Of a stretch of DNA of 64,000 nt, positions 28,387 to 59,278 are shown piece by piece. Within the stretch, counting starts at the first letter, position 1; each line of letters opens with the position of its first letter. Below the pieces are notes generated by a model. It was not told the DNA's origin. It saw nothing but the letters and a program-made list of their open reading frames with translations, and made no database searches. This DNA is from Marivibrio halodurans (GTDB lineage: Bacteria; Pseudomonadota; Alphaproteobacteria; UBA8366; Aestuariispiraceae): NCBI RefSeq assembly GCF_017963645.1, contig NZ_JAGMWN010000001.1:248001-312000 (forward strand), given 5' to 3'. A program made the translations under genes and the position numbers.

Positions 28387-28477
28387 TGTCTGTCTGTTTT
28401 ATTCGGAATCGTTAGGGTTTCCCTTTGGCGGCGAATTGTGATTCATGCTGAGTGCTGGAGCAAGGAGGCTGGCCTGC

Positions 28478-28846
28478 ATGACGCGCCCCCTTTCCCGTGG
28501 CCTTCGAGAGCGCATCGTGGCCGGCTTGGCCGACGGGCGGGACGTGCCGCGAGGGTGCCCGGCGTTACGATGTGTCGGTGGCGGGCCGGCCGGAGTTTGT
28601 GACGCCCGGCAGGCGGTCCGAGACGCCGGCGCTCATCTCCTCTTCCTGCCGCCCTATAGTCCCGACCTCAATCCGGTCGAGATGATGTCCGCCAAGCTCA
28701 AGACCCTCGTCCGCAAGGCTGAAACCCGAACCGTCGAGGAAACATGGCGGCGCGGCGGAACTCTCCTCCACGCCTTCCCCCAGACGAATGTGCTCGCTAC
28801 ATCAGACACGCAGGGTAAGATTCAGTCTAAATCAGACGAATACTAA
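28478..28846 (+). pseudogene. IS630-family transposase remnant
   Basis: The first residues (TRPLSRGLRERIVAGLADG) match the IS630 N-terminal helix-turn-helix. The expected continuation (CREGARRYDVSVA) is read in another frame, showing a frameshift near 28550. The C-terminal DDE segment (LLFLPPYSPDLNPVEMM, then AKLKTLVRKAETRTVEETW) follows directly, so most of the catalytic core, including the first two acidic residues, is deleted. The remnant cannot be active. It ends where the 262-base palindromic element begins. Confidence 0.82.
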
Positions 28847-29216: not shown

Positions 29217-31676
29217 TTAAACCGTCAGCCCCGCTGATCGCGCAGCCTCGATCTGCCGATTGAGCAGGTCGCGCCACTCGGCGCGCTCCCGAATGCAATC
29301 CTGGAGATTGGCGAACAGGGTTTCGGCGAAGGGGCGAACCGCCTTGAAATTTGGCGCGGCCGACGCATCGAGTGCGGGAAGCTTACGAACGGCCGGATCA
29401 TCGGGTGCATGCGCGACAACCTCGTTCGGAACGTCGATCTTCAACGCTTTCACGAGATCCTCGAATTGCTCGCCGATATTACGATATTCCAGCACATAGC
29501 CGTCCGGCCGATTGAGAACGATTGCATAGCCGATCACGTCGTTCATCGCCAACTGGAAGAGATTCCGCATCAACTCATCCCTGGGGATCGTCGGATAGCT
29601 CGGCCCCGCCTCAGCAGTCTCGCGCAGTCGACGAAGCATCACGCTCTCCTTGCCGCGCGGCGTGCGCCCATCCTTCGCTAGTCGATGCGTTGGTCCCCGG
29701 AACCGAAAGGACAGCAGGACCTCGCTATAGGGCCGGGTCAGCAGCACGGGTGTCACTTTCCGGTCCAATTTCGCGCGGATACCTTCGATGGCGGCTTCCA
29801 GGTCGTTCTCCTCGAGCGAGAAGATTAACTTCGAACCCGCATATCGCGCCGTGCCGGACCAAGTTGCGAAATCCGCTAGGAAGGTGCCGGACATATCTGG
29901 CACCATGCGATGCACTTCGTCGGGGGTCGCGTTCTTGGGTAGGCTCCAGCGATACTCAAAATCACTCGCGACGCCCGGCAGTTGATTGAGTAGGGTCGTC
30001 ACCCAGGTCGATCCTGTGCGCCCATTCCCGATAAAGAGAAAACCACCCTTCAGGGCCCGCCGAGACGTGGCGGCATTCTTCTTTTCGGCCTTTGTCCCGG
30101 CCGCGCCGTCGCTGGCCCGATAATAAGGCGATTCCTTCCAATTCACGATGGTGCCTAGAACCTGTCGCGTCGGAAGGTCCATATTGACACGCCCTGCGAC
30201 CAGGTGCTCTGGAACACTATCGCATTCACGCAGCGCCGAACTACGCGGCGACATGCTCACTTGATAACGCAAGGCCACGATCAGGCGACGCTTGCTTTGC
30301 GGCTGGTGAATTTTATGAAGCTGGAAGCCGTTGGAGGCAAGAATCGTCCCGGGCGGGCCCGTGAAGAACTTCTGATCCTGCTCGAACAACGCCAGCTTCA
30401 CCGATTGCGGAATGTGATACCCATACCCGTCGAAAAAGTCGAAGACGGTGAGGTTGCGGTCGAGATGCGGGAAATCCTGCCCCTTTCGAAGAGCCTCCTC
30501 GAGCCGCTTGGCGACGACATCGAAGCGATGCGATCCTGGGATAAGGGCGTGCGGTCCCGATTCCATATCCACATCGCTTAGATACATATAGACCCAGAAC
30601 ATGCCGAAATCGTTCAGGTCGCGGTGATAGTCGCCGATAGTCACGCCGTCCGGAACGAGATGGTCGGTATGCGGGAAATCCCAATGGACATAGATTTTCG
30701 ACAATAGAGGCGTCCCACCGAGATGCCGCCGCCCCACCTCCAACAGCGTTGGATCAACCGAGAGCTCGAGCAAATGCGGCGCGGCCATCGAATCGGCCAG
30801 GGAATAGCTGCCGTAGGAAAAGGCTTCGGCCCCATAGCCGACGAAACGTTGGATATTGTCCAGGCGATTTTCCGCCGTATGACCATTATAGACAGGGCGG
30901 CCAAGGAAATAATCGTAGACTTCCTGCAATTGCCGTTCGGTCAGTAAGGGATCGAAAGTCGTGGTGCCATGCTCAGCCATGTCCGACGCGTGACGGTCGA
31001 TTTTCTGTGACGTTTCACTAAATATCGCGGTCCCGAAGCGGCGCCGGTTGATCATCGCGACCAGCGCGCCGACATCATGCCAATGGACCAGCCGTCGGAA
31101 GCATTGCTGCTTCATGGAATGGTAGATACCACCATTTTCAGGCATCTGTAGCCATCGCAACACCTGCGCGGTCAGGTCGAACGGTATGCGGCGCCGATAA
31201 GCCTCCGCGACGAGCGCCCTCGCGAATAGAACGTCATTATCCAGCGCGTCCGCGTCACCGGCACTGATCGCCTCGGCTGCCTCTTCTGCCAACCGAAGGC
31301 TGGCGGGCTGGAAATAGGCTCCAAGGGCATTGGCATGAATCTGCCAGAGACTGCCGGCCTCCGATGAGTAGACAAGTGGCCGGCTGAGTTTCGGCATGGT
31401 CCGCAACGCCTTGATGTAATAGGGTGCCACGCGGCTTTGTTCCGCATAGGCGACTTCAAGGTGCGCCATATCATGTGAATGATCTGCTTGACTTGGCGGT
31501 ACGGTCGGCGCCGATGGCTCGGAAAACGCCGTTTCCGCAGCAGAATCAGGTGCCGCATTGCTCGCCTCAGAAACGGCGAAGGCCGGATCATTGAGCTTAA
31601 GGTACTCTGCCAGATCGCTCGGCACGGGCTCCTGTATCTGGCCGAGAAGGCTCGCTAGCCGTTTGGCGTGATCCAT
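29217..31676 (-). CDS. Fusion protein: Fe(II)/2-oxoglutarate dioxygenase (PhyH-like) plus sulfotransferase
   Basis: The 819-residue protein has three parts. Residues 1-240 are unrecognised and mostly helical. Residues about 245-475 look like a phytanoyl-CoA-dioxygenase-type jellyroll: YHRD (H351, D353), the conserved ESGPHALIPGSH, and a distal histidine and arginine in QLHKIHQPQSKRR (H454 or H457, R463). Residues about 544-819 are a sulfotransferase-like domain with the PAPS-binding loop FIGNGRTGSTW (548-558) and the 3'-phosphate-binding region around LLTRPYSEVLLSF. It would hydroxylate and sulfate a glycan or its precursor, which is inference. It lies at the 3' end of the exporter gene group and overlaps the small upstream gene by 22 bases. 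Confidence 0.75.
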   Translation of the reverse strand: MDHAKRLASLLGQIQEPVPSDLAEYLKLNDPAFAVSEASNAAPDSAAETAFSEPSAPTVPPSQADHSHDMAHLEVAYAEQSRVAPYYIKALRTMPKLSRPLVYSSEAGSLWQIHANALGAYFQPASLRLAEEAAEAISAGDADALDNDVLFARALVAEAYRRRIPFDLTAQVLRWLQMPENGGIYHSMKQQCFRRLVHWHDVGALVAMINRRRFGTAIFSETSQKIDRHASDMAEHGTTTFDPLLTERQLQEVYDYFLGRPVYNGHTAENRLDNIQRFVGYGAEAFSYGSYSLADSMAAPHLLELSVDPTLLEVGRRHLGGTPLLSKIYVHWDFPHTDHLVPDGVTIGDYHRDLNDFGMFWVYMYLSDVDMESGPHALIPGSHRFDVVAKRLEEALRKGQDFPHLDRNLTVFDFFDGYGYHIPQSVKLALFEQDQKFFTGPPGTILASNGFQLHKIHQPQSKRRLIVALRYQVSMSPRSSALRECDSVPEHLVAGRVNMDLPTRQVLGTIVNWKESPYYRASDGAAGTKAEKKNAATSRRALKGGFLFIGNGRTGSTWVTTLLNQLPGVASDFEYRWSLPKNATPDEVHRMVPDMSGTFLADFATWSGTARYAGSKLIFSLEENDLEAAIEGIRAKLDRKVTPVLLTRPYSEVLLSFRFRGPTHRLAKDGRTPRGKESVMLRRLRETAEAGPSYPTIPRDELMRNLFQLAMNDVIGYAIVLNRPDGYVLEYRNIGEQFEDLVKALKIDVPNEVVAHAPDDPAVRKLPALDASAAPNFKAVRPFAETLFANLQDCIRERAEWRDLLNRQIEAARSAGLTV

Positions 31677-32067: not shown

Positions 32068-33162
32068 TTACGATGCTATGCTCTCCTTGGACAGGATGTT
32101 GTCCACCTTCTTCGCAAGCTCCTCGTCGAGCGTTTCCCCATCACGAGATTCAATCCCGCGTTGCAGCGCCTCGCGGTTCGCCTCCATATCCGTCCCTTCC
32201 TCATATTCCGCGATGAGGGATCGGATTTTCACCTCGAAGGATATCGGCTTGTTCTGCTCCTGCAACAGGGCGACGTAGCGACGCCACATCTTAATGCTGT
32301 TCGGAGCAATGGTGAGGGCGTATCGAAGCCCTTGTTCCTCCAGTGCCGGGGGGGGAAGTTCCCCTCGGCTGGCCATGTCCACCGCCATGATATAGGCCTT
32401 GCGAAGGGCGTCCGGTGCCCCACGCTTTGCCCCTTCGATGATCTGGCTGCGGTAGTTTTGGACAAGCTGATCCGGCGCTCCATCGGCAAGGATGCGGCCG
32501 TGTTCCAGAACGATGCAGCGATTGCAGACCTTCTGCACGAAACTTTCGGAATGCGAGGCGACGACGAGAATGGATGAACGGTCGATCATCTCATTCATTC
32601 GCGATTGCGCCTTCTGCGTGAACCCCGCATCGCCCGTCGCAAGCCCCTCGTCCAATAGAAGGATTTCGGGTTCCACCGCCGTCGCGATGGAAAAGCCGAG
32701 CCGCATCAACATGCCGCTGGAATAGGTTCGAACAGGCAGGTCGATATAGGGACCGAGTTCGGCGAACGCGATGATCTCATCCGATTTCGCCGCGATCTCG
32801 CGCCGGTTCAATCCCAGATGAAGGCCGCAAATAACGATGTTTTCGCGACCTGACCCATCCATGTTGAGGCCCGGCGTGGAATTAAAAAGAGTGGATATCC
32901 GCCCGACCGCGCTGACCCTGCCCTGTGTCGGGCTATAAACGCCCGCGAGCAGCCGCAGCATCGTGGATTTACCGGCACCGTTGTGCCCAATGATGCCCAG
33001 CCGGTCTCCTTCCTTCAGGTCCAGCGTGATATCCTGTAGCGCGCTGACTATGCCGCGATTCGGATCGATCGTTCCGCCGATATCCGCGATCGTCCCGTCC
33101 TTCGAAGCGACAGGCTTTATCGGGAATTCTATCCAGGCGCCTTCACAAGTGATTCGTGTCAT
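32068..33162 (-). CDS. Polysaccharide ABC exporter, ATP-binding subunit (Wzt/KpsT type)
   Basis: The 364-residue protein has a standard ABC ATPase domain: Walker A GHNGAGKST, the signature region TYSSGMLMRLGF, Walker B ILLLDEGLATGD and a switch histidine in VASHS. The N-terminal block (DPNRGIVSALQDITLDLKEGD) is typical of O-antigen and capsule exporters. Residues about 235-364 are a helical extension (GAPDALRKAYIMAVDMASRG onward), not the beta-sandwich carbohydrate-binding domain of Wzt. ATG 33162 lies 14 bases after the permease stop; TTG 33186 is possible. With the permease it would export a lipid-linked glycan. Confidence 0.9.
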   Translation of the reverse strand: MTRITCEGAWIEFPIKPVASKDGTIADIGGTIDPNRGIVSALQDITLDLKEGDRLGIIGHNGAGKSTMLRLLAGVYSPTQGRVSAVGRISTLFNSTPGLNMDGSGRENIVICGLHLGLNRREIAAKSDEIIAFAELGPYIDLPVRTYSSGMLMRLGFSIATAVEPEILLLDEGLATGDAGFTQKAQSRMNEMIDRSSILVVASHSESFVQKVCNRCIVLEHGRILADGAPDQLVQNYRSQIIEGAKRGAPDALRKAYIMAVDMASRGELPPPALEEQGLRYALTIAPNSIKMWRRYVALLQEQNKPISFEVKIRSLIAEYEEGTDMEANREALQRGIESRDGETLDEELAKKVDNILSKESIAS

Positions 33163-33176
33163 TCCTTGGACCCGCC

Positions 33177-34046
33177 TCAATACCAAAACGCGATTCGGTC
33201 ACGAACGCGTCCGTAAATCCAGAATGTGACCGCCGTTCCTACGATCAATGTTCCGACGGCCCATATCCAGCTTACCGGGTCTGGCATTTGGCCGATCAAC
33301 GGGTCTCGGACGATCCGGACGAGGTGATAGAGCGGGTTGTAATCCACCGCGTAAGCCAATTCCGGGCCGAGCATATCCTTCGGCCAGAGAATAGGGGTTA
33401 CGAACATCGCGATCTGCATCGCGGAAGCCGCCGCCGGAACCACGTCGCGAGATCGCATGCAGATGATACCGACGAGTAAGCTGATCCAAACGCCATTCGC
33501 CACCAGCAGCAAGAGAGCCGGAAGCGCGAGAAGCGCGATCCAACCCGGCAGGAACTGGGTGACAACCATGATGATCAGATAAAGAAGGCAATGATGCCCA
33601 AACAGCAAAAGGGCGCGCCATACGTGCCCCATCGCGAAGGCGATGAAGGGAAAGCGTATCGACAATGCCGTGGCGCCGCTGGAGAGAATGCAATGGGTTC
33701 CCTCCACGACGAAATAAGACAGCAGCGACCAGACGATAAGGGACGTTCCGACATATCGGAAATGGTGTGTCGGATCCTGCTTAAGAACCACGGCCCAGAT
33801 CGTTCCCATGACGAAGACGAAGGCACCCAGGGCGAGTGTGTGCCAGAAGGCACCGAGCTTCGTGCGCCGATATTTCCAGAGAACATCGATCCAGCCGCTA
33901 TAGAGCCAGACAGGCGCGAGCCGTATCGATTCCCGGATATCCGATATTACCACGCTAAAGGAGCCGCCGCGCTCGGGTGTCGTGAATCCGGGTTTCGCCG
34001 GAGTACGCTTCGGACGACCTGCGGCCATGGAATGCTGCTCGTTCAT
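33177..34046 (-). CDS. Polysaccharide ABC exporter, permease subunit (ABC-2, Wzm/KpsM type)
   Basis: The 289-residue protein has an N-terminal amphipathic region and six hydrophobic segments between about residues 65 and 280, the ABC-2 export permease layout. WKYRRTKLGAFWHTLALGAF, VTPILWPKDM and YNPLYHLVRIVRDPLIG are typical Wzm/KpsM blocks. It exports lipid-linked or phospholipid-anchored glycan across the inner membrane with the ATPase encoded 14 bases downstream. Confidence 0.92.
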   Translation of the reverse strand: MNEQHSMAAGRPKRTPAKPGFTTPERGGSFSVVISDIRESIRLAPVWLYSGWIDVLWKYRRTKLGAFWHTLALGAFVFVMGTIWAVVLKQDPTHHFRYVGTSLIVWSLLSYFVVEGTHCILSSGATALSIRFPFIAFAMGHVWRALLLFGHHCLLYLIIMVVTQFLPGWIALLALPALLLLVANGVWISLLVGIICMRSRDVVPAAASAMQIAMFVTPILWPKDMLGPELAYAVDYNPLYHLVRIVRDPLIGQMPDPVSWIWAVGTLIVGTAVTFWIYGRVRDRIAFWY

Positions 34047-34304: not shown

Positions 34305-34967
34305 TTATTCGAAGTAAATGAATTCGTGGTCTCCGCTATAGCCGGTCTTCTCGAACAGGAACCGCCACTCCTCCGGCGTATGGAAGGCGCGGCAGGTGAG
34401 CTGCCAATACATCAGATTGACCTTCTCGCGCTCGTTCCTATAGCCCTCGACGCAGATATATTTGGCGACTCGCCCCACACGCTCGATTTCCTGGAACGCG
34501 GACCATAGATCGGGCAGGTAGAGATTGTGCAGCGTGTTGATGGAGATCACGAGGTCGAAGTAATCATCGGGCCAGGGTAGTTCGGCGGCGGATCCAACCT
34601 GGCAGTTCGGCTTCACCGAATCCATGGTATGCTCAATGGCGTAGCTGGAGATATCAATGCCGGCCACCTCGACGCCCGGAACCGACTCCGTGAAGTCGTG
34701 CAGCAGGAACCCCTTCCCCGACCCGACATCCAGTATCCGCATGCCCGGCTTGATGCCATAAGATTCGACCATCGCATCCGCGACCTTACGCCAGCGCCCG
34801 TCATATTTATAGCCGCCATAGCCGGTCAGCCGGTCACCGTCCCAATAGTCGTAGCCGAACTGGATCGCGACCTCCGCCACCTCGGCCTTATCGATTTCGT
34901 TCACCCGCGCGATATAGTCCCGCTTCGTCGATTTATGGACGAGGCTGACGAATTCCTGCATGGCCAT
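34305..34967 (-). CDS. Class I SAM-dependent methyltransferase
   Basis: The 220-residue protein has motif I ILDVGSGKGFLL and the acidic residue after strand 2 in VAGIDISS. It also has FDLVISINTLHNLYLPDLWS in the motif IV/post-IV region. The acceptor is unknown; genomic context suggests a sugar or glycan. GGGGGAACC precedes ATG 34967. It is the last gene of the sugar-precursor block running from 42128 down to 34305. Confidence 0.87.
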   Translation of the reverse strand: MAMQEFVSLVHKSTKRDYIARVNEIDKAEVAEVAIQFGYDYWDGDRLTGYGGYKYDGRWRKVADAMVESYGIKPGMRILDVGSGKGFLLHDFTESVPGVEVAGIDISSYAIEHTMDSVKPNCQVGSAAELPWPDDYFDLVISINTLHNLYLPDLWSAFQEIERVGRVAKYICVEGYRNEREKVNLMYWQLTCRAFHTPEEWRFLFEKTGYSGDHEFIYFE

Positions 34968-35036
34968 AGGTTCCCCCTTCGCGACCGGTTCAGTTTGGAC
35001 GGTTTCAACAGGCAGCCGGTTTCAGTGCATCGCGCG

Positions 35037-36080
35037 CTAGCCCGGAACAGCCCTGTCGATCAAGAGTTTCGCTTTCTCGAGTTGCGCCGCGCAGCGTGCC
35101 GATCGTTCCCCCTGACCGGCGAAGCGGCGGCGTGCATCGTGATGCAGCAGGAAATCGTTTAGAACGATACAAGCCCATTTGATGCTATAGGCGGCACGAA
35201 ACGCCATCATTCGTTCTCTGGCGGCATTACCCAGGGCAAGCCGATCGACAAGGATTTCGACGAACAAGTCGAAATACACGGAAGGCGTGGGGATCTCGGG
35301 GCAATTGAAGAAATCGCCCGCGAGCTTGGCCGGATCGTCCCAGCCCGCATATTCGAAATCGAGGAAAACGAGTCCCCTGTCCGCGGACCACAATGCATTG
35401 TGAAAGCCGAAATCGGAGGGAGAGGCAACGATCTCCCCTTCCGGCAACGGCGCGGCTGGATCTGCTCCCGCACGCGCGCAGGCTTCCATGAGAGCCTCCT
35501 TTATCCGCCCCCAAGCCGGGCCGAGCCGGTTACCGATGAGGGAACGGGCCGCCTCGATATGCGGTGCGTCGGGGTCGAGCATATCCAAGCGATCCACTCG
35601 CGCATCGATCCGCCGTATATGATCCGACATGGAAAAACATGCCTCAGACCCGTCATCGAGCGCCCCGCGCTCATGCGGTGCGTCGTTGAGCGTGCAGATG
35701 AAGTCGGACGCCTGCCGGATGTGGTCTTCCGTGATCGCCCCGGGCGCCAGTTTCTCGCCCCCGACGAACTCGTAAAGACCGATCCCGGCCTCCCTGTCGC
35801 AAGAAAGCGGCTGCGGCACGCAGCGCACGCCCCTTCCCCAGGCATAGGTCAGGAAGCGCCATTCCGCTCCCAAACGGTCGCGGGGATCGTCGGCATGCCG
35901 AAAATAGCTTTTCAGGACAAGGGGTTTATCGGCCGTTTCGACGCGATAGACGCGATTATTCTTCCCTCCGGCAAGAGCGGCCAGCCCCGTCGGAGCCCCC
36001 TGACCGGCCCGCGCACAAAGCGATGCCAGGGCGTCCGTCAGGGCCGGATCGTCCACCGGAAAATCAGCCGCCGCCGTCAT
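35037..36080 (-). CDS. Phosphotransferase family protein (aminoglycoside/choline kinase fold)
   Basis: The 347-residue protein has the kinase-like fold of the APH/choline-kinase superfamily. The catalytic loop is SPSDFGFHNALW and the metal-binding motif is VFLDFEYAGWDDPAKLAGDF. The N-lobe has GGKNNRVYRVET and VLKSYF with the nucleotide-binding lysine. Members in surface-glycan loci may phosphorylate sugars, for example at the anomeric carbon, which is inference here. ATG 36080 lies 5 bases after the HAD gene; an open frame extends upstream to 36188 inside that gene. Confidence 0.8.
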   Translation of the reverse strand: MTAAADFPVDDPALTDALASLCARAGQGAPTGLAALAGGKNNRVYRVETADKPLVLKSYFRHADDPRDRLGAEWRFLTYAWGRGVRCVPQPLSCDREAGIGLYEFVGGEKLAPGAITEDHIRQASDFICTLNDAPHERGALDDGSEACFSMSDHIRRIDARVDRLDMLDPDAPHIEAARSLIGNRLGPAWGRIKEALMEACARAGADPAAPLPEGEIVASPSDFGFHNALWSADRGLVFLDFEYAGWDDPAKLAGDFFNCPEIPTPSVYFDLFVEILVDRLALGNAARERMMAFRAAYSIKWACIVLNDFLLHHDARRRFAGQGERSARCAAQLEKAKLLIDRAVPG

Positions 36081-36085
36081 AGGGA

Positions 36086-36685
36086 TCACTCCAGCAGGGC
36101 GCGACGCATCGCCCCCCAATCCGAGAACCGCTCCTGCCCCCCTTCGCCCATCTTGGCGCCGACCGGATCGAACAGGATGCGCCGGCATTCGTCGGGGAAG
36201 CCGTCCATCGCCAGGATTTCCGGCAGGTCATCGATGAAGACGTCGACCGAAAGCGCCGCCGCGCGGGCCACCTTCTCCTCCTTCGTCAGTTCGAAGAAGG
36301 CGCGCTCGGAGGACAGCATGCCCGGGGCGAAGAACCCCCGAGCCTCCAGGAACCCCCGCGCGGCCGCATGCATGTCATAGTCGGGCCCCTTCATGGGATG
36401 CCGGGTCTTGTGACTGACGACATAGACGTCGTGCCCGCCCTTCACCGCCGCCGCGATGAAGTCCGCCACCCCGTCATAGGGCGAGACCAGATCCATCCGC
36501 GCCCCATAGACATAGCCCTGAAGCTCGGTGAAGGCATCCTTCTGCCCCGCGCCGTTCAGGTAATCCCGAACCGCGTTCTTGGATCGATCGATATCGGCCG
36601 GGATCAGCCCACGCTCCAGCGCGGCCGCGTGGAAGACGCCGTCATAATTCGCGATCGTGTTGTCGAAATCGACGCCGATGCGCAT
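36086..36685 (-). CDS. HAD-superfamily hydrolase
   Basis: The 199-residue protein begins with the HAD motif I MRIGVDFDNTIANYDG (D6, D8). Motif II is in YVVSHKT, the motif III lysine is near LTKEEK, and motif IV is FIDDLPEI. It probably removes a phosphate from a sugar phosphate, comparable in role to GmhB though not a clear GmhB orthologue. It is flanked by the phosphotransferase and the zinc dehydrogenase within a tight operon. Confidence 0.82.
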   Translation of the reverse strand: MRIGVDFDNTIANYDGVFHAAALERGLIPADIDRSKNAVRDYLNGAGQKDAFTELQGYVYGARMDLVSPYDGVADFIAAAVKGGHDVYVVSHKTRHPMKGPDYDMHAAARGFLEARGFFAPGMLSSERAFFELTKEEKVARAAALSVDVFIDDLPEILAMDGFPDECRRILFDPVGAKMGEGGQERFSDWGAMRRALLE

Positions 36686-36695
36686 GGGATGCGGA

Positions 36696-37736
36696 TCAGC
36701 GCTTCGACATGTCGATCAACGGCCGCGCGACGCGTCCGGCGGCAAGATCCTCGAGCGCCTGGGTCGCCTGGTCGAGGCTATAGGGATCGCTCAACAACCC
36801 GCGGATCGGGAAGCGGCCGCTGGCGAGCAGCTTGCCGAAGCGCGCATAGTCCCTGTCCGGCGCGCTGTCGCCGCCCCAGGTGCCCATCAGGCTCTTGCCC
36901 TGATTGAAGACGGAGGGGCTGATCGTCAGATCGTCGCCCAGCTTCGCATTGCCGATCACCACGACGCGACCGCCCTGCCCGCGCACGGCCTCGACCGCGC
37001 CGGCCATGACCTTGGAGGAGCCGGAGGCTTCCACCGCGAGATCGACGCCGCCGGGGGCGATCGCCTTGATCGCGTCCACGACATCCTCGCTCGTCGGGTC
37101 GATCACATGGGTCGCGCCATAGGCCTTGGCCAGTTCGCGCCGGGATTCCTTCGGATCGATGCCGATGATCGGAATCGCGCCGGCGAAGGCCGCCGCCATG
37201 CAGGCATTGAGCCCGATGCCACCGGTTCCGAAGATCGCGATGCTATCGCCCGCGCGCGCCTGAAGCACATTATGGACCGCGCCCATGCCCGTCGGCGCGG
37301 CGCAGCCGAGCAGGATCGCCGTCTCCGCCGTCAGGCCGGCCGGAAGCGGGGTCAGGCGGTTCTCGCTGACCACGGCATGGCGCTGGAAGGTGGTGACGCC
37401 GCCGGCATTCACCTCCTTGCCGTCCCAATCGTACTTGCAGCCACCGGTCTCAGCGCCGCCGCCCCGAATCCAGGAGAGGACGACCGCGTCGCCCTCCTTC
37501 ACCTTGGTGACCCCGGCGCCGGCATCGATCACCGTGCCCGTGCCCTCGTGGCCGAGACAATGGGGCAGCCAGCGATCCGGCCCCTTGTCGCCCCGCCATT
37601 CCATCACCTGGGTGCCGCAGGCCCCCGAATAGGCGATTTCGACCAGAACCTGCCCCGGCTTCAGCGCGGGTATGCTCAATTCCGCCAGGACCAGCGGTTT
37701 CCCTTGTTCGACGAGGAGCGCGGCTTCGGTTTTCAT
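36696..37736 (-). CDS. Zinc-dependent dehydrogenase, class III-like MDR
   Basis: The 346-residue enzyme has the catalytic-zinc cysteine in YSGACGTQVMEW, the histidine in CLGHEGTG and the third ligand region ILLGCAAPTGMGAV. The Rossmann motif is GTGGIGLNA. The four-cysteine structural-zinc lobe is missing; the segment WIRGGGAETGGCKYDW replaces it. The C-terminal LLSDPYSLDQATQALEDL matches the class III alcohol dehydrogenase layout. It overlaps the transketolase C-terminal gene by 4 bases. A sugar alcohol or sugar-derived aldehyde is the likely substrate, by context. Confidence 0.86.
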   Translation of the reverse strand: MKTEAALLVEQGKPLVLAELSIPALKPGQVLVEIAYSGACGTQVMEWRGDKGPDRWLPHCLGHEGTGTVIDAGAGVTKVKEGDAVVLSWIRGGGAETGGCKYDWDGKEVNAGGVTTFQRHAVVSENRLTPLPAGLTAETAILLGCAAPTGMGAVHNVLQARAGDSIAIFGTGGIGLNACMAAAFAGAIPIIGIDPKESRRELAKAYGATHVIDPTSEDVVDAIKAIAPGGVDLAVEASGSSKVMAGAVEAVRGQGGRVVVIGNAKLGDDLTISPSVFNQGKSLMGTWGGDSAPDRDYARFGKLLASGRFPIRGLLSDPYSLDQATQALEDLAAGRVARPLIDMSKR

Positions 37737-38677
37737 GATACGGCGGAGGTCCTTTGTTCAACGGTTGCACAGACGCGCTCGGCGATCTGGTGGCCCGTCA
37801 GCCCGAGGCATTCACGGGCGAATTCCTGTTCGCCGGATTTCTTGAAGAACTTATCGGGGGTTCCGATACGCATGAGCTTGCGCGCATCGACGCCGGTATC
37901 GACCGCCCATTCCGCCACCGCCGCGCCGAGGCCGCCGATGACCGAATGCTCCTCGATCGTTACCACCCGCTGAAACCGCTGGAATGCGTCGGCGAGGCAT
38001 GCCTCGTCCAACGGCTTGACGGTGTGGAAACTGACGACGCGTGTCGAAATCCCCTGCTCCCCTAGCAGACGGCCGGCCTCCAACGCCTCCGGCAGCATGT
38101 TTCCGGTCGACAGCAGACAGACGTCGGAGCCGTCCTCGATGGTGATGGCCTTGCCGATCTCGAAATCCTCGATCGGGCCGGAGTGGATGACCGGCTCGCC
38201 CTTCTTGCCCATGCGCATATAGACGGGGCGATCCTGGCGCAGGATCGCGCGGAGCGCGGCGCGAACCTCCCAGGCATCGCCGGGCGCCATCACCACCATG
38301 TTCGGGATGGAGCGCAGGAACGAAATATCCTCGCACGCATGGTGCGTCGGACCGAGCCCGGCATAGGACAGTCCCGCCCCCACGGCGACGATCGTGACCG
38401 GCACCTCGTGATAGGCCGCGTCGGTGCGGATCTGCTCAAGGCACCGCGTGGTGATGAAGGGCGTGATCGTATAGGCGACCGGCCGCATGCCGTTCATGGC
38501 CATGCCGGCGGCGACGCCCATCATGTTCTGTTCCGCCACGCCGCAATTGAAGAAACGGTCCGGCTGCGCGTCCTTGAACTTGTCGAACAGCTTGTTGCCG
38601 ATATCCCCCGACAGCATCACGACGCGGGGGTCTTCCTGGCCAAGCTTCGTCAGCTCGTCTGCGAAGGCGTTTCTCAT
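37733..38677 (-). CDS. Transketolase, C-terminal subunit
   Basis: The 314-residue protein is the pyrimidine-binding plus C-terminal half of a split transketolase. The conserved glutamate is in CGVAEQNMMGVAAGMA. LSYAGLGPTHHACEDISFLR matches the family, and the C-terminal domain starts near DGSDVCLLSTGNM. Split transketolases transfer a two-carbon ketol unit using thiamine diphosphate. The partner N-terminal subunit is encoded next, 1 base away. Occurrence inside a polysaccharide locus suggests synthesis of an unusual sugar. Confidence 0.92.
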   Translation of the reverse strand: MRNAFADELTKLGQEDPRVVMLSGDIGNKLFDKFKDAQPDRFFNCGVAEQNMMGVAAGMAMNGMRPVAYTITPFITTRCLEQIRTDAAYHEVPVTIVAVGAGLSYAGLGPTHHACEDISFLRSIPNMVVMAPGDAWEVRAALRAILRQDRPVYMRMGKKGEPVIHSGPIEDFEIGKAITIEDGSDVCLLSTGNMLPEALEAGRLLGEQGISTRVVSFHTVKPLDEACLADAFQRFQRVVTIEEHSVIGGLGAAVAEWAVDTGVDARKLMRIGTPDKFFKKSGEQEFARECLGLTGHQIAERVCATVEQRTSAVS

Positions 38678-38678
38678 G

Positions 38679-39521
38679 TCAGATCAACCCCAGTTCACGA
38701 TGCGCTTCGGTGACTTCCTCGGCGGTGGGCGCGCGATAGTGCCAGTTGTTGTCGTCCTCCATGAAGGAGACGCCCTTGCCCTTGACCGTATGCGCGATCA
38801 AGGCCACCGGCTTGCCGGAGCCGTTCGGCACATTGGCCATCAGTTCCGCCAGCTTCGCGACGTCGTGGCCGTCGACCTCGTGCGCGTCCCAGCCGAAGGC
38901 GGCCCATTTGTCGCGCAGCGGCGCCAGCGCCAGGGTCTCGTTCGACCGGCCGGTCGCCTGCCACTTGTTGTAATCGACGATGACGCAGACATTCTCGAGC
39001 TTCTGGCCCGCGCCGAACATCGCGGCCTCCCAGACGGAGCCCTCGTTGTTCTCGCCATCGGACAACAGGGCGAAGACGCGATAATCCTGCCCCTTGATCC
39101 GGCCGGCGAGCGCGGAGCCGAGGCCGATCGGCAGGCCGTGTCCGAGGGAGCCAGTCGCCGCCTCGACCCCGGGCAGCAGGTTGGCCGGCGGATGCTCCGC
39201 CAGCCGCCCGTCATCCTGGTTATAGGTGGCGAGCTCTTCCTCCGGGAAATAGCCGCGCATGGCGAGCGTGGCGTAAATCGCCATGGCCGCATGCCCCTTG
39301 GAGAGGATGAAACGGTCGCGCTTCGGGTCGTCCGGACGCTTCGGATCGATGCGCAGCGCATGCCAATAGGCGGCTGTCAGGACGTCCACGCAGGACAGCG
39401 ACGAGCCCAGATGGGCGGATTTGGACGCGTGGCACATCTCCACCACGCGGCCGCGTATGCGCGCGGCCTGGGCGCGCAGGGCCTCCCCGTCCGGGCTTCG
39501 ATCTAGGGCCATGGCTTCCAT
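38679..39521 (-). CDS. Transketolase, N-terminal subunit
   Basis: The 280-residue protein carries the thiamine-diphosphate-binding half: SKSAHLGSSLSCVDVL, FILSKGHAAMA, GSLGHGLPIGLG and the diphosphate motif LLSDGENNEGSVWEA with YNKWQATG after it. It would pair with the C-terminal subunit encoded downstream. ATG 39521 (MEAMALDRS) is used; the open frame runs upstream into the epimerase gene without family sequence. Confidence 0.92.
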   Translation of the reverse strand: MEAMALDRSPDGEALRAQAARIRGRVVEMCHASKSAHLGSSLSCVDVLTAAYWHALRIDPKRPDDPKRDRFILSKGHAAMAIYATLAMRGYFPEEELATYNQDDGRLAEHPPANLLPGVEAATGSLGHGLPIGLGSALAGRIKGQDYRVFALLSDGENNEGSVWEAAMFGAGQKLENVCVIVDYNKWQATGRSNETLALAPLRDKWAAFGWDAHEVDGHDVAKLAELMANVPNGSGKPVALIAHTVKGKGVSFMEDDNNWHYRAPTAEEVTEAHRELGLI

Positions 39522-39541
39522 TGGACGCCTCTCTCGATGAC

Positions 39542-40543
39542 TTAGGGCTTGTGAATATAGTCGGACGGCAGATTGGGCAGTTCGCTCTCGAAGCGCCTGG
39601 CCCAGGCGATGCAATCGGCCACGCCCTCCGCGAGACCAATCTTGTCGCGCCAGCCGAGTTCGGTGCGAATCTTGAAACTGTCGAGCGTATAGGCCGTGTC
39701 CTTGCCGGCCCGCTCCGGTCCGATATCGACGCAATCCTCGAAGGAGGCGCCGAGCTGATCCAGGATCGTTTCGACCAACTGCCGGATGGAAACAAGCTCA
39801 TAGCCGGAGATGTGATAGCAATCGCCGGGCGCGCCGTTGAGCGCCACCTTGTAGGTCGCGTCCGACACGTCGTTCATATGAATGAACACGCGCACGGACT
39901 TACCGCCGCCATCCAGCTTCAGACGCTTGCCCGTCATCGCCGCGTAGATCGTGCGCGGGATGATCCGGTAGAGCTGCTGGCCAGGGCCGTAGACATTCGC
40001 CGCCCGGGTCGAGACCGCCGGGAAGTCGAAATTGTCGACATAGGTCTTGAGGCTCATATCGCCGGCCGCGCGGGAGACCGCGTAGGGGGTCGAGGGATTG
40101 TAGGGATGATCCTCGCGCACCCAGCCCTCGGTCGAGCCATAGACCTCCGGCGTCGTCACATGCACGTACCGGTCGAGCCCGTCATAGCCGCGCAGCAGAT
40201 TGTGCAGCCGCACCGTGGAAACCACGTTGGTGCGCATCCAATCGTCGGGATGGTCCCAACTCTGCCCCACCATGCTCTGCGCCGCGAAATTGACGACATG
40301 AGTCGGACGTTCGCGCTTCAGAAGGGCGCCGAGCGTGTCGAGATCGTGATTGATGTCGATCTTCTCGAATCGGACGGCGCCGCCGTCCTTGCGCCATTTA
40401 TAGGGCAACAGCGCGTCATGCGGCTCCGCCGAGCGGCTTCCGGCCAACACGTCATAGCCGAGGCCCGCGAGATAGTCACAGAAACTCGCCCCGGAGAAGG
40501 AGTTCGACCCGAGGACTAGAAAACGTTCGTTACCGGCCATCAA
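39542..40543 (-). CDS. NAD-dependent epimerase/dehydratase (GDP-mannose 4,6-dehydratase-like SDR)
   Basis: The 333-residue extended SDR protein has a nucleotide-binding motif GSNSFSGASF instead of the classical GxxGxxG. It also has VVNFAAQSMVGQSW and HVTTPEVYGSTEGW. The catalytic tyrosine motif is TPYAVSRAAGDM, with arginine where YxxxK normally has lysine. The block RVFIHMNDVSDATYKV matches sugar-nucleotide dehydratases. It probably acts on an activated sugar, dehydrating, epimerising or reducing it. It lies between the SIS isomerase and the transketolase pair. Confidence 0.85.
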   Translation of the reverse strand: MMAGNERFLVLGSNSFSGASFCDYLAGLGYDVLAGSRSAEPHDALLPYKWRKDGGAVRFEKIDINHDLDTLGALLKRERPTHVVNFAAQSMVGQSWDHPDDWMRTNVVSTVRLHNLLRGYDGLDRYVHVTTPEVYGSTEGWVREDHPYNPSTPYAVSRAAGDMSLKTYVDNFDFPAVSTRAANVYGPGQQLYRIIPRTIYAAMTGKRLKLDGGGKSVRVFIHMNDVSDATYKVALNGAPGDCYHISGYELVSIRQLVETILDQLGASFEDCVDIGPERAGKDTAYTLDSFKIRTELGWRDKIGLAEGVADCIAWARRFESELPNLPSDYIHKP

Positions 40544-40551
40544 TCCCCGCC

Positions 40552-41193
40552 TTACGAGCTTTTGCCTTCGACGACCTCATGGCGCTTCGTCCAGAGGTAC
40601 TGCATCAGCATATGCCCGATAACGAGCTGCGCATCCTCGGCGATCTGCATGTCGTCGATGGCGAAATGAATCGGCCGGTCGGCCATCGCCTTCGCCTTGC
40701 CGCCGGAGAAGCCGAGCACGGCATAGCTCTTCATGCCGATCCGCTTCCCCTCCTCCAGGGCGTTCAGGATGTTCGGGGAATTCCCGCTGCCGGAGAAGCA
40801 GATCAGGATATCGTCCGGCCGCGCCATGACGCCGAGCTGAATCGAGAAGATCTGATCATAGCCCTCGTCATTGGCCAGGCAGGTAAGGACCGCCGAGTTG
40901 GCTGGCAGCGCATGGGCGCGAATGCCGGAGCCCGGAGTCTTGCCCAGGGCATAGACGAAGTCGTTGGCGAGGTGGATCGCGTTGCCCGCGCTGCCGCCAT
41001 TGCCGCAGAAGAAGACCTGCTTGCCGGTCTTCCAGGCGTCCAGCATGTCGTCCGCCAGCTCCGCCACCTGTTCCCAGCTATAGCCGGTCAGCGTGTCGGA
41101 CAGGCGCTTCGCATAGGCGGAGAACATGCCGTCCGGGCCGCCGGACCGGTCGTCCGCCGGACGCTCTACCGTCGGTGCTTCCGTTACGCTCAT
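40552..41193 (-). CDS. SIS-domain sugar phosphate isomerase (GmhA-like)
   Basis: The 213-residue protein has a single SIS domain with QVFFCGNGGSAGNAIHLAND, LICFSGSGNSPNIL and the C-terminal IGHMLMQYLW block. It resembles sedoheptulose-7-phosphate isomerase (GmhA), which converts the ketose phosphate made by transketolase-type chemistry to a heptose phosphate. ATG 41193 follows GGAGG at 7 bases and overlaps the stop of the upstream epimerase (TGATG-type overlap). Confidence 0.87.
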   Translation of the reverse strand: MSVTEAPTVERPADDRSGGPDGMFSAYAKRLSDTLTGYSWEQVAELADDMLDAWKTGKQVFFCGNGGSAGNAIHLANDFVYALGKTPGSGIRAHALPANSAVLTCLANDEGYDQIFSIQLGVMARPDDILICFSGSGNSPNILNALEEGKRIGMKSYAVLGFSGGKAKAMADRPIHFAIDDMQIAEDAQLVIGHMLMQYLWTKRHEVVEGKSS

Positions 41194-42128
41194 CACAGCA
41201 CCTCCTCTTGCATCCAGTTCAGATTGTAGAACGAGGGCTCGTTTTTCAGAACCCCCTGGGAATGGAGGCCGGCCAACTCGCGAATGGCGTCGCGTACAGT
41301 CTTCTTCGGCCGGAACCCGGTGGCGAGCAGCTTATCCGAATTGACCCGGTAGGAACGCGGATCATTGGACGGAGTCACGACGACCTCCGCATCGACATGC
41401 TCGCCGACCATCTCGGCGATCTCGCGAATCTTCAGGTTCTCGAACCCGGCGTTATAGACACCGGTGTGCTGGGGATTGTGGAGCAGGAAGACGTAAAGAT
41501 CGGTGATGTCGTCGATATGGATGTTCGGCCGGGTTTGTTCCCCGCCGAAGACGGTGATCTTGCCGTTCTCCAGCGCCTGCATCGTCAGCATATTGACCGA
41601 GACGTCGAGGCGCATGCGCGGCGAATAACCGCAAACCGTCGCCGGGCGCACGATCTGGACCGTCATGTCGTTCTCGTAGGAGAGCACGATCCGCTCGCCG
41701 CACATCTTCGTCTTGTTGTACTCGGACAGCGGGAAGAGCTCCAGATCCTCCGTCACCTGCGGCTCGTCCGACACGCCGTAGACCGAGCCGGAGGAGGCGT
41801 AGATGAACTGCTTCACGCCGACGCGCTTCGCACGGTCCGCGAGCTGCATCGTGGCGAGGCAACTGATCTCCCAGGTAAGCTTGGGGTCGAGATCGCCGCA
41901 CGGGTCGTTGGCCACGCTCGACAGATGGATGACGGCGTCCACGCCCTCCAGATCCACCTCGTCGATATTGCGGATATCGCCCTTGACCATGGTCAGGTTC
42001 GGGTGCGGCAGCAGATGATTGCCGAACCACTGGATATCGAAGGCGACGACTTCGTGCCCATGCTCCAACAGCTTCGGCACCAGCACGGTCCCCTTATACC
42101 CACACGCACCGGTCACAAAGAGTTTCAT
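41193..42128 (-). CDS. NAD-dependent epimerase/dehydratase (UDP-glucose 4-epimerase-like SDR)
   Basis: The 311-residue protein has the Rossmann motif VTGACGYKG and HLSSVANDPCGD. The SSGSVYG strand and catalytic YNKTK (YxxxK) follow, then RPATVCGYSPRMRLDV and HIDDITDLYVFLL. The residue pattern is that of sugar-nucleotide epimerases/dehydratases. It is the first gene of the minus-strand precursor block and overlaps the SIS gene. Confidence 0.88.
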   Translation of the reverse strand: MKLFVTGACGYKGTVLVPKLLEHGHEVVAFDIQWFGNHLLPHPNLTMVKGDIRNIDEVDLEGVDAVIHLSSVANDPCGDLDPKLTWEISCLATMQLADRAKRVGVKQFIYASSGSVYGVSDEPQVTEDLELFPLSEYNKTKMCGERIVLSYENDMTVQIVRPATVCGYSPRMRLDVSVNMLTMQALENGKITVFGGEQTRPNIHIDDITDLYVFLLHNPQHTGVYNAGFENLKIREIAEMVGEHVDAEVVVTPSNDPRSYRVNSDKLLATGFRPKKTVRDAIRELAGLHSQGVLKNEPSFYNLNWMQEEVL

Positions 42129-43204: not shown

Positions 43205-43320
43205 AATGTCTCATTCGTTCGGCGGAATCTCTGGTTCATTATAAATCAATGTCCTATGTAGGGGCATTGGTGACAGTGTGCTCGAGGCTGCACTGTGCTA
43301 ACGAGATTTGGGTAGCGAAT

Positions 43321-44283
43321 ATGACGGTCTCTATCGCCAAGGTTCGTGCAAGTATCATGAAACAAGGGCTCCCCAAGGATTGGTCGCGGGTCAGCAATTG
43401 CTATGGGGTGGCCATATCGTCGCGCATTCTTCTGCCGTTCCTCGGCGCCTTCGTTGTGGCCCCCTATCTCGTCACGTTTTCGCCTTGGTTGGCCATCCCT
43501 GTTGTTCTGACGATGGGAATCTACGGCTACAAGATCAGCTTTATCCTACATGACTGCTCGCATAACGCGCTATTCTCGAGAAAGTCCGTCAACCTATGGG
43601 TCGGGCGTGTCTGTGGGTGGATGGTTGGCGTCAACTATGATGTGTTCCGCCAGACTCATCTCTTGCACCATAGCCACAATGGCCAGGGCCTTGACCCTCA
43701 GCATGGCGAAGTGAATGGGTTTGGTGGAGCCTCGCGGGGTAAGCTGTTGCATCATCTGCTGACCCCGCTCCTAGGCATGCGCGCGCCGGAGATAATCTTA
43801 GGCTATGGCGGCGGGTACCTCGAGGCGGAAGAAGGCGAGCAAGCAACCCTCGAGCGTGTTGCCGACGAAGGGCGCCGCACTCGTATCCTCTGGCTCGGTG
43901 GCACGGGACTCACGCAAATCGTCCTCGCATTGATTGTCGCGAATTTTGGCATGGTTCCATGGGCCGTGCTGCTTTACCCGTTGGCTGTCGTAACGGTCGG
44001 CTTGTTTCTTGCTCGGATGCGGACCTTCGCTGAACATTGCAGGCCGGAAGGGGTGGAAACCCCCGACTTCACGCGGTCTCACCGACCGAACTGGGTCGAT
44101 TCCCTGCTGCTATACGATGCACATTTCAACTATCATCTTGAGCACCATCTTTTCCCACAAATTCCATCCAACCGCCTGAGAAACCTCTATGATAAGTTTG
44201 GTGAGCAATATCATACAGAAGCGACGATCGCATCGTCGATGTTTGCAACTGTGGCGCGGCGGGTGCTTGATGCGCGAGGGTAA
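43321..44283 (+). CDS. Fatty acid desaturase family membrane protein
   Basis: The 320-residue protein has all three di-iron histidine boxes: HDCSHN, HLLHHSHNG and HFNYHLEHHLFP. Hydrophobic membrane segments lie around VVAPYLVTF and LTQIVLALIVANF. Family members desaturate or hydroxylate acyl chains, including acyl-lipids. Location within the glycan locus suggests it modifies a lipid anchor or an acyl group on the sugar. I use ATG 43321 (MTVSIAKVR); an earlier ATG at 43249 adds an implausible N-terminus. The downstream methyltransferase overlaps its end by 14 bases. Confidence 0.88.
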   Translation: MTVSIAKVRASIMKQGLPKDWSRVSNCYGVAISSRILLPFLGAFVVAPYLVTFSPWLAIPVVLTMGIYGYKISFILHDCSHNALFSRKSVNLWVGRVCGWMVGVNYDVFRQTHLLHHSHNGQGLDPQHGEVNGFGGASRGKLLHHLLTPLLGMRAPEIILGYGGGYLEAEEGEQATLERVADEGRRTRILWLGGTGLTQIVLALIVANFGMVPWAVLLYPLAVVTVGLFLARMRTFAEHCRPEGVETPDFTRSHRPNWVDSLLLYDAHFNYHLEHHLFPQIPSNRLRNLYDKFGEQYHTEATIASSMFATVARRVLDARG

Positions 44284-50837: not shown

Positions 50838-51956
50838 CTAGCTCCTGTTCGCCGAAGCTCCCCCGCCCCGGACTGGGTAGATCACCGCGACCTTGCCAGT
50901 ACAATCCTTGATGGCATCACGATCCACATCCGGAAGACCGTTCACCAAGAAGAAGACATCCTGGTCCGATAGAAATGCAGCGAACTCCTCACAGACCGGC
51001 TGCCACGCCTGGAAGCTTATCACGCGTGAGTCCCTTGCGCATTCAAGGTCGATTGTCCCTCCCCATTTGGATTCCGTCCAATCCTTCCGAGTCGCGGTTA
51101 GGCGCTCCGTCTCCTCGGAATTGCATGTCGGGGAAAGCGCTCGCCACTCCCGTAAAATGGTTTCGGCCTGTTCTAAGCCTGCTTCCCCATAGGGTTCCGG
51201 CGGAAAGATGATCGCGAGGGCACCAGTACAATCCTTGGGCACGGTCTTCGGGTCGAGTTCCATCCCATCAAGGAAGAACGATAGATCATTCTCCCGAATA
51301 ATATCGATCAAGTCTCCACAGATCGGTGGCCATACCTGGAAACTGATCACATGCGTTCCCTGCGCGCATCCAAGTGTCACGGCCCCCCCCCATGCGGATG
51401 TTTTCCAGTCCGCGTGCGAAGCAGTCAGGCGCGCCGCTTCCTCCGGATCACAAACCGGGTCCTTTTCGCGCCATTCGCGTAAAATTTGGTTCGCCTGCGC
51501 GAAGCCAGCCTGCGCATATGGCTGTGGCTCGAAGAAAATAGCGAGAGGACCAGTACAATCCTCATCCGCGACGGGCCCATCAACCTCTTCGCCATTCAAA
51601 TACAAAGTTTGCCCGCGTTTACTGCTGATTTTGACGATATCAGCGCAAAATGGCTGCCATACAGGTACGCTAACAACACGAATTTCACCAAGGCACATCA
51701 GTGTTACGTCCTGTCCCCAGATCAAGGTTTTTAACGCAGGACGCCCTTTGAACACATCGGACAGTCGATCTGGATCACATGTCGGCGATTCTTGACGCCA
51801 TATGTCGACGATTTTTGCAGCTTGCTCATAGCCATGTCTTGCCAGCAAGGATGTCTGAAAATCCTTGGCCAGAAAAAGTATGCTGGGGGGAATAATGAGA
51901 AGAGAAAAGGCCAGAATAATGCTTTTCATTAACTTCATGCGCTGAGTCATCACCAT
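50838..51956 (-). CDS. Membrane-anchored protein of three exact-length cysteine repeats
   Basis: I do not recognise a family. The 372-residue product has an N-terminal hydrophobic anchor or signal (about 10-30). Three tandem units follow (41-149, 150-258, 259-367), each 109 residues without gaps. Cysteines recur at 60/169/278, 88/197/306, 104/213/322 and 134/243/352. Shared motifs are ILREW, WGG, VISF, W.P..C and DCTG. The four cysteines per unit suggest disulfides in an exported domain. It starts 4 bases after the stop of the 744-residue membrane protein gene, so the two are probably made together. Confidence 0.78.
   Translation of the reverse strand: MVMTQRMKLMKSIILAFSLLIIPPSILFLAKDFQTSLLARHGYEQAAKIVDIWRQESPTCDPDRLSDVFKGRPALKTLIWGQDVTLMCLGEIRVVSVPVWQPFCADIVKISSKRGQTLYLNGEEVDGPVADEDCTGPLAIFFEPQPYAQAGFAQANQILREWREKDPVCDPEEAARLTASHADWKTSAWGGAVTLGCAQGTHVISFQVWPPICGDLIDIIRENDLSFFLDGMELDPKTVPKDCTGALAIIFPPEPYGEAGLEQAETILREWRALSPTCNSEETERLTATRKDWTESKWGGTIDLECARDSRVISFQAWQPVCEEFAAFLSDQDVFFLVNGLPDVDRDAIKDCTGKVAVIYPVRGGGASANRS
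50856..51836 (-). repeat. Three tandem 327-bp coding repeats
   Basis: The DNA encoding the 109-residue units repeats every 327 bases. For example, CCAGTACAATCC on the + strand begins at 50896, 51223 and 51550, spaced exactly 327 bases each time. Units run 51836-51510, 51509-51183 and 51182-50856. Nucleotide divergence between units is clear, so the duplications are not very recent. Confidence 0.88.
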
Positions 51957-59232: not shown

Positions 59233-59278
59233 TTCCCCCGACCTTGATTTGAATTGTCCAGCGTGCGCCCAGTCGCGC

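Follow-up and report, generated by a model that had tools for sequence, protein, structure and literature searches.

What reaction, and on which substrate, does a protein catalyze when a predicted oxygenase and a predicted sulfotransferase are joined in a single chain beside a polysaccharide exporter? This question is raised by a gene for an 819-residue protein of the alphaproteobacterium Marivibrio halodurans (Aestuariispiraceae), located in a stretch of 64,000 nucleotides (contig NZ_JAGMWN010000001.1, positions 248,001 to 312,000; hereafter, the window, to which all positions without a locus name refer). The initial annotation described this gene as a fusion of an Fe(II)/2-oxoglutarate (2OG) dioxygenase with a sulfotransferase dependent on 3'-phosphoadenosine 5'-phosphosulfate (PAPS). 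The present analysis indicates that, judging from sequence comparison and structure prediction, the protein very probably contains two active enzyme domains, and we somewhat favor the view that, as a whole, it is a two-domain tailoring enzyme acting on a surface glycan that the surrounding gene cluster makes and exports.

The open reading frame (ORF) is real, as initially annotated: it lies on the minus strand, starts with ATG, has no internal stop, and reads as one coding unit. Third-position G+C is 0.63-0.70 in the parts of the fusion gene and 0.69-0.70 in the adjacent exporter genes, and is higher in tktC (0.83) and LptD (0.76). No sigma-70-like promoter was predicted between 28800 and 32200 (shuffled sequences average 1.3). 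Scans of the sampled genome contigs and of viral contigs with the whole protein detected no relative, and the two matches obtained by phmmer among PDB sequences were both at chance level. The AlphaFold model of the whole protein, built from 61 alignment rows (the query and 60 of the 80 rows of relatives described below), has a mean predicted local distance difference test score (pLDDT) of 60.3.

Residues ~205-480 are predicted, from alignment and model, to be a PhyH-like Fe(II)/2OG dioxygenase, in which the fold and all residues expected of an active enzyme are present. H351, D353, G443, H454 and R464 do not vary in any of the 81 aligned rows (80 rows of relatives plus the query; L103 contributes two rows, whereas L061, which is too short, a short second fragment in L078 and a minus-strand match in L113 were left out). 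The metal site proposed in the initial annotation, H351, D353 and a distal histidine, is thus recovered in full, the distal ligand being H454; R464 is presumably the 2OG-binding arginine. The jellyroll on which that annotation staked its case is predicted across residues 245-475: pLDDT mostly exceeds 90 over residues ~221-470 but falls to 66 at 341-350 and to 71-80 at 401-430, and the nearest folds are Fe/2OG oxygenases. The top solved structures retrieved by Foldseek were SnoK, proline hydroxylase H11, SnoN and KanJ, with EctD ranking lower and AviO1 and EvdO1 also among the matches; KanJ, AviO1 and EvdO1 act on sugar-containing antibiotics. All 50 rows listed by VIA-align (Z 17.0-19.1) are Fe/2OG-type oxygenases or epimerases and carbocyclases of that kind, in a list that was obtained with the whole model, is dominated by the dioxygenase domain and carries nothing on the C-terminal part. 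A search of PDB sequences with the dioxygenase profile retrieved leucine hydroxylase (E 0.0036).

Relatives of this domain are widespread. They were detected in 8 of the 14 genomes sampled from the family and in at least 20 of the 385 genomes in the class sample (own genome counted in both cases; the latter tally is a lower bound, with no more than two candidates scored per genome), the best homologue having E = 2.8e-40. Apart from the gene itself, the listed matches in these two samples lie inside residues 194-504; the best relatives, standalone frames of ~300-410 residues, begin at 202-252, and some weaker ones at 194. An alignment-based scan of named genomes yielded 184 relatives, many of them Alphaproteobacteria by title, along with Bacteroidota, cyanobacteria and others; the locus-level results given here cover 80 of these. 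In a tblastn search of plasmids, 39 records matched, the 20 listed ones inside residues 148-498 and with less than 60% identity, whereas a scan of viral contigs with the dioxygenase alignment produced no relative. Phylogenetically, the query belongs to a wider clade with a support of 0.994, but among its nearest neighbors the support is 0.273, and its branch is long, 1.97 substitutions per site. The PF05721 cut-off of 22 bits is passed by relatives in L027 (22.4), L009 (23.4), L044 (25.5), L046 (28.5) and L106 (29.5); the close relatives in L026 (15.0) and L050 (15.2) fall below it, and neither the one in L053 nor the query (at E <= 10) matches this family, hence the label 'PhyH-like' rather than assignment to PF05721.

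For residues ~546-819, sequence comparison supports a very divergent sulfotransferase with both PAPS-site signatures and an arginine of the Stf0 type. Among 398 genomes of the phylum, 7 (own included) matched the C-terminal piece at E <= 0.01, the strong matches being confined to a genome of another class (G500), which encodes two standalone homologues (E 6.0e-13 and 7.1e-12); the five weaker matches range from E 6.9e-4 to 0.0098, and three of them contain internal stops. Within the 48 genomes sampled from the class of G500, G500 alone matched, and within the 14 genomes of the query's family, its own genome alone did; these samples overlap in part. Two weak matches of the C-terminal 275 residues among the 385 class genomes were dismissed, one being an HflX GTPase and the other having no Pfam or NCBIfam family. 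A single plasmid match (E 6) and two matches of the C-terminal profile to PDB sequences were likewise attributed to chance.

The standalone homologues reach E values between 0.0024 and 0.03 against PF00685 or PF13469, under the curated cut-offs, and the query is 24% identical to each of them. All three sequences share N551, G555-S-T-W558, E574, W577, G614-S-K-L617, T647-R648 and L655-S656, the Arg and Ser of the 3'-phosphate site (R648 and S656) being eight residues apart in each, as well as M-N-D and Y-x-x-x-x-E motifs further toward the C-terminus. In hhalign comparisons, the profile made of these three rows matched sulfotransferase alignments built from PF00685 and PF13469 loci with probabilities of 93.6% and 95.3%; these two alignments contain 27 rows each, mostly from the same loci, and so are not independent tests. 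A separate Stf0 (PF09037) alignment of 7 rows gave a probability of 90.1%, in a match that extends over both PAPS loops. Six unrelated control families (2 to 60 rows each) reached at most 3.9%, the value obtained for P-loop ABC ATPases, and 100 column-shuffled profiles, 50 for each of the PF00685 and PF13469 sets and none for the Stf0 comparison, at most 2.9%. Given the E value of the best dioxygenase homologue, 2.8e-40, and a sulfotransferase profile match far above the 100 shuffles, the matches of both domains are beyond chance.

According to PMC11625862, the PAPS loop of sulfotransferases carries a Lys (Arg in Stf0), the helix binding the 3'-phosphate carries a Ser (in PF00685, within the motif RXXXDXXXS), and the base is either His or Glu. 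The corresponding elements in the query are R553, in the loop that the initial annotation had placed at 548-558 and that is found there as GNGRTGSTW; R648 and S656, with Glu replacing Asp in the motif between them; and, as a candidate general base, E574, which lies just behind the PAPS loop and does not vary among the three sequences. By HMMER, PF09037 matched neither the whole protein (E <= 10) nor the C-terminal piece (E <= 1), nor anything in the query's own genome. The genome contains a 715-residue frame that matches APS kinase (E 2.2e-70), so that PAPS should be available. It also encodes three frames of 627-701 residues with PF13469 matches (L132, L133 and L134, the last under the cut-off) and a GRAGTT loop, two of which lie 1.4 kb apart on the same contig (C18).

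The front without relatives proved shorter than initially annotated. The initial annotation had described a 240-residue helical front; the segment free of relatives appears to span about 150-200 residues, as the BLAST alignment with an Azospirillum relative begins at residue 149 and the HMMER alignment at residue 204. A helical structure is predicted, but with block pLDDT values of 33-66 throughout. In phmmer searches at E <= 1, residues 1-240 matched nothing but the gene itself in the loci scanned, including the 80 loci of dioxygenase relatives, and residues 1-205 alone had no match in either of two Azospirillum relatives.

Table 1. Features of the fusion gene and of its neighbors in the window
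Feature	Position	Strand	Basis
Fusion gene, 819 amino acids: unmatched front, PhyH-like Fe(II)/2OG dioxygenase, putative divergent PAPS sulfotransferase	29217..31676	-	ORF, homologues, profiles, structure prediction
Front with no detectable relatives, residues 1-150 (residues 150-204 uncertain); low-confidence helical prediction	31227..31676	-	phmmer, starts of BLAST and HMMER alignments, pLDDT
Predicted Fe(II)/2OG dioxygenase domain, double-stranded beta-helix (jellyroll), residues 215-480	30237..31034	-	pLDDT, Foldseek, VIA-align
H351-R352-D353, predicted Fe ligands (HxD)	30618..30626	-	H and D invariant in 81/81 rows
H454, predicted distal Fe ligand	30315..30317	-	invariant in 81/81 rows
R464, expected 2OG carboxylate ligand	30285..30287	-	invariant in 81/81 rows
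Linker joining the two enzyme domains, residues 521-545	30042..30116	-	beyond C-terminal end of standalone relatives in alignment; low pLDDT
Putative sulfotransferase domain, residues 546-819 and stop	29217..30041	-	homologues L142:9317-10276:- and L143:5508-6587:+; hhalign 90-95%
Predicted 5'-phosphosulfate-binding loop GNGRTGSTW, residues 550-558, R553 at the Lys/Arg position	30003..30029	-	homologues KSGSTW; Arg in Stf0 per PMC11625862
Predicted 3'-phosphate-binding strand-turn-helix, residues 646-657 LTRPYSEVLLSF, R648 and S656 (RxxxExxxS)	29706..29741	-	three-sequence alignment, Stf0 alignment; consensus RXXXDXXXS per PMC11625862
Wzt-like ABC exporter ATPase, Wzt_C not found	32068..33186	-	PF00005 5.3e-20; nearest NCBIfam galactan_ABC_ATP, 249.9 bits, cut-off 400
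Wzm-like ABC exporter permease	33177..34046	-	PF01061 1.3e-07; sole NCBIfam match galactan_ABC_perm, 182.2 bits, cut-off 380
Sugar-supply cassette: methyltransferase, APH-like kinase, HAD-like protein, alcohol dehydrogenase, split transketolase (tktC, tktN), dTDP-glucose-dehydratase-like SDR, GmhA-like isomerase, epimerase	34305..42128	-	Pfam, NCBIfam

The fusion gene lies, as initially reported, beside a Wzm/Wzt-type exporter, the genes of which are located upstream on the same strand, at a distance of 391 bp, and are closest to galactan-type models, under the cut-offs. Beyond the sugar-supply cassette, in which the assignment of the short-chain dehydrogenase/reductase (SDR) is likewise under the NCBIfam cut-off, the cluster includes glycosyltransferases, RmlD and two proteins with C-methyltransferase domains. 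Taken together, the exporter pair, the dehydratase-like SDR, RmlD, the C-methyltransferases and the glycosyltransferases speak for a glycan context. Three long ORFs of the glycan cluster, 50838-51956, 51961-54195 and 57325-59409 (372, 744 and 694 amino acids), have no Pfam match at 0.001. On the other side of the fusion gene, between it and LptD, lies a remnant of a DDE_3 transposase (28445-28846) that covers profile positions 97-144 of 146; this remnant fits local acquisition of the fusion gene and is no proof of it.

Homologues of the cassette and of the sulfotransferase meet in G500, where one of the two standalone sulfotransferase homologues directly adjoins homologues of tktC, tktN and the APH-like and HAD-like genes, and the other lies ~2 kb from a WcbI-type polysaccharide gene. 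This neighborhood is the best substrate hint available, pointing to a glycan that contains the sugar supplied by the cassette. The HAD-like gene of the cassette, ORF 36086-36685, which itself has no Pfam match and is named after a weak match of its homologue, is present in 22 of 372 class genomes (own counted). A large part of the cassette is conserved with it: among 20 of the 21 non-self cassette loci, 18 contain tktN, 17 APH, 17 tktC and 10 the methyltransferase. In one of these 20, L200, a Wzt/Wzm-like pair is located inside the cassette.

On this evidence, we infer that both domains are catalytic and share one substrate, an exported glycan or its precursor; that the substrate is a glycan is itself probable, although with less assurance than the activity of the two domains. 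The dioxygenase would act on a cytoplasmic glycan or nucleotide-sugar and oxidize one of its C-H bonds, in the simplest case to a hydroxyl. The tethered sulfotransferase would then pass sulfate from PAPS to a hydroxyl of that substrate, either ahead of its export through the Wzm/Wzt-like transporter or in the course of it. The action is placed in the cytoplasm because PAPS and 2OG are located there.

Several results weigh against this assignment. The whole 819-residue protein has no match in Pfam (E <= 10) or NCBIfam (E <= 1), so that the domain searches suggested initially gave a divided outcome: the sulfotransferase was recognized at the profile level and the Fe, 2OG and PAPS residues are intact, but family models failed on the complete sequence. 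The best Pfam match of the C-terminal piece alone is PF13469, over the loop, at E 0.072, and the query by itself reached 12.1% and 18.3% in the hhalign comparisons, the signal coming mainly from the two homologues. Structure prediction of each part likewise succeeded for the dioxygenase jellyroll, but not for the C-terminal part, for which the model is uninformative (mean pLDDT 37.5). No second copy of the fusion was detected in the genome samples searched (family, class, phylum and the class of G500), so that conservation gives no backing to the arrangement. In the stretches covered at the 20 cassette loci, several of which end at contig ends, neither a sulfotransferase nor a dioxygenase of this kind was detected, which implies that the fusion is an accessory rather than a fixed member of the cassette. 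Finally, genes for glycosyltransferase family 2 (GT2), SDR and ABC ATPase are not enriched near the dioxygenase relatives, the SDR and ABC counts even rising with distance; the GT2 profile found just 10 genes in this count, which therefore has low power. Accordingly, the dioxygenase family gives no argument for glycans, and the proposed substrate rests on the fusion locus and on the surroundings of the homologues. Single relatives do adjoin glycosyltransferases, in L050 and in Azospirillum TSH100. Of ten neighboring ORFs in seven loci of close relatives, five had no match. Among the others, L050 contributes a GT2 gene, L048 a borderline GT2 and an FkbM methyltransferase, and other loci a pterin dehydratase and an EPSP synthase.

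The way in which the two domains would cooperate on a glycan can be envisaged in two forms, which are versions of the two-domain tailoring enzyme and do not exclude it; both are tentative, and to the same degree. In a strict relay, the dioxygenase would hydroxylate a deoxy- or C-methyl sugar at an unactivated carbon and the sulfotransferase would sulfate exactly that new hydroxyl, with the corollary that the fusion would provide a sulfation site that the sugar itself lacks. The fused reactions are chemically consecutive and the cluster is rich in deoxysugar genes (the dTDP-glucose-dehydratase-like SDR under the cut-off, RmlD and the two C-methyltransferase-domain proteins), but these genes do not indicate which residue is modified, and action at two different positions fits the same data equally well. 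Such independent decorations of one glycan, or epimerization, cyclization or desaturation by the dioxygenase, with the fusion fixing the ratio and location of the two activities, would agree with the presence of the epimerase SnoN and the carbocyclase SnoK among the near structural neighbors, and with the fusion of the same dioxygenase family to a different module, GSCFA, in L067; nothing observed speaks positively for two separate positions. A shade more doubtful than either is the specific proposal that the single chain hydroxylates a deoxy- or branched sugar at a carbon without a hydroxyl and then caps the new group with sulfate.

Other explanations depart from glycan tailoring by two enzymes. 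That the substrate is a lipid or a small molecule is rather unlikely, but draws on a fatty-acid desaturase gene nearby (43249-44283), on the lack of enrichment near glycan genes in the dioxygenase family overall, and on an ORF resembling, by eye, an acyl-adenylating enzyme that adjoins a standalone sulfotransferase homologue (L142:7574-9289); the immediate neighbors of the fusion gene are exporter and sugar-cassette genes. We consider it less probable still that the dioxygenase alone is catalytic and that the sulfotransferase fold of the C-terminal part has degenerated and is retained for binding of the substrate or of PAPS or its desulfated form, PAP. The extreme divergence of this part (24% identity to each homologue, in a protein that as a whole matches no family) and the replacement of Lys by Arg in the PAPS loop would agree with degeneration, but the G-S-T-W core, R648, S656 and E574 are retained in all three sequences, and Arg is normal in Stf0 according to PMC11625862. 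The chain termination suggested in the initial annotation, whereby the enzyme would cap the growing chain and the cap would license export, is very improbable. The gene does adjoin the exporter genes, but no Wzt_C domain was detected in the ATPase, for which Pfam at E <= 0.01 gives ABC_tran and AAA_29 only, and the nearest NCBIfam model, under its cut-off, is of the galactan Wzt/RfbE type. A galactan-type exporter is not known to need cap recognition. The Wzt-like ATPase has ~120 extra C-terminal residues (past ~250 of 372) with no Pfam match.

If a two-domain enzyme that makes a hydroxyl and then sulfates it is indeed what this gene encodes, the cell could sulfate positions out of reach of ordinary glycan sulfotransferases; a relay, if real, would offer a sulfate route to otherwise unfunctionalized sugar carbons and a single-gene tool for glycan engineering. 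A sulfotransferase branch that escapes Pfam and NCBIfam when the whole protein is searched also bears on the number of unrecognized sulfated bacterial glycans.

What is new in kind here is the combination of two known enzyme families. The view that it was not a described enzyme agrees with the genome samples searched and with searches of open-access literature aimed at this combination, in the listed titles and abstracts of which a dioxygenase-sulfotransferase fusion is absent, itself weak evidence. In the 80 loci of dioxygenase relatives, no ORF matches the N-terminal or C-terminal parts of the query, and a sulfotransferase-like gene is present in two (L069 and L080). A related arrangement, and a second unusual fusion, is found in a metagenome-assembled genome of Bacteriovoracaceae (L067:9734-12091), where a dioxygenase of the same family shares its frame with a module downstream of it, which is a GSCFA domain (E 1e-43) and not a sulfotransferase; this family thus accepts other modules. 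With the PhyH-type Fe(II)/2OG dioxygenases (PF05721; SnoK, SnoN, KanJ, EctD, H11), the query shares the jellyroll, the HxD...H metal site and the Arg, but differs in failing to reach PF05721, in its long branch (1.97) and in the fusion to a sulfotransferase. Its C-terminal part resembles Stf0 (PF09037, the trehalose 2-sulfotransferase type) in the profile match of 90.1% over both PAPS loops and in the Arg of the PAPS loop, but is not assigned to that family for want of a PF09037 match by HMMER; it resembles Sulfotransfer_1 and Sulfotransfer_3 (PF00685 and PF13469) in the three-row profile matches of 93.6% and 95.3%, whereas the query and both homologues score under the curated cut-offs and the query has RxxxExxxS instead of RxxxDxxxS. 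At the level of the locus, counterparts are the gene clusters for sulfated capsules in marine Cobetia and Vibrio (PMC11766843, PMC11641403), which likewise combine an ABC-exported polysaccharide, sulfotransferase genes and PAPS supply; there, the sulfotransferase genes are described without a dioxygenase, a word that does not appear in either main text, whereas in M. halodurans the two activities are predicted to reside in one protein.

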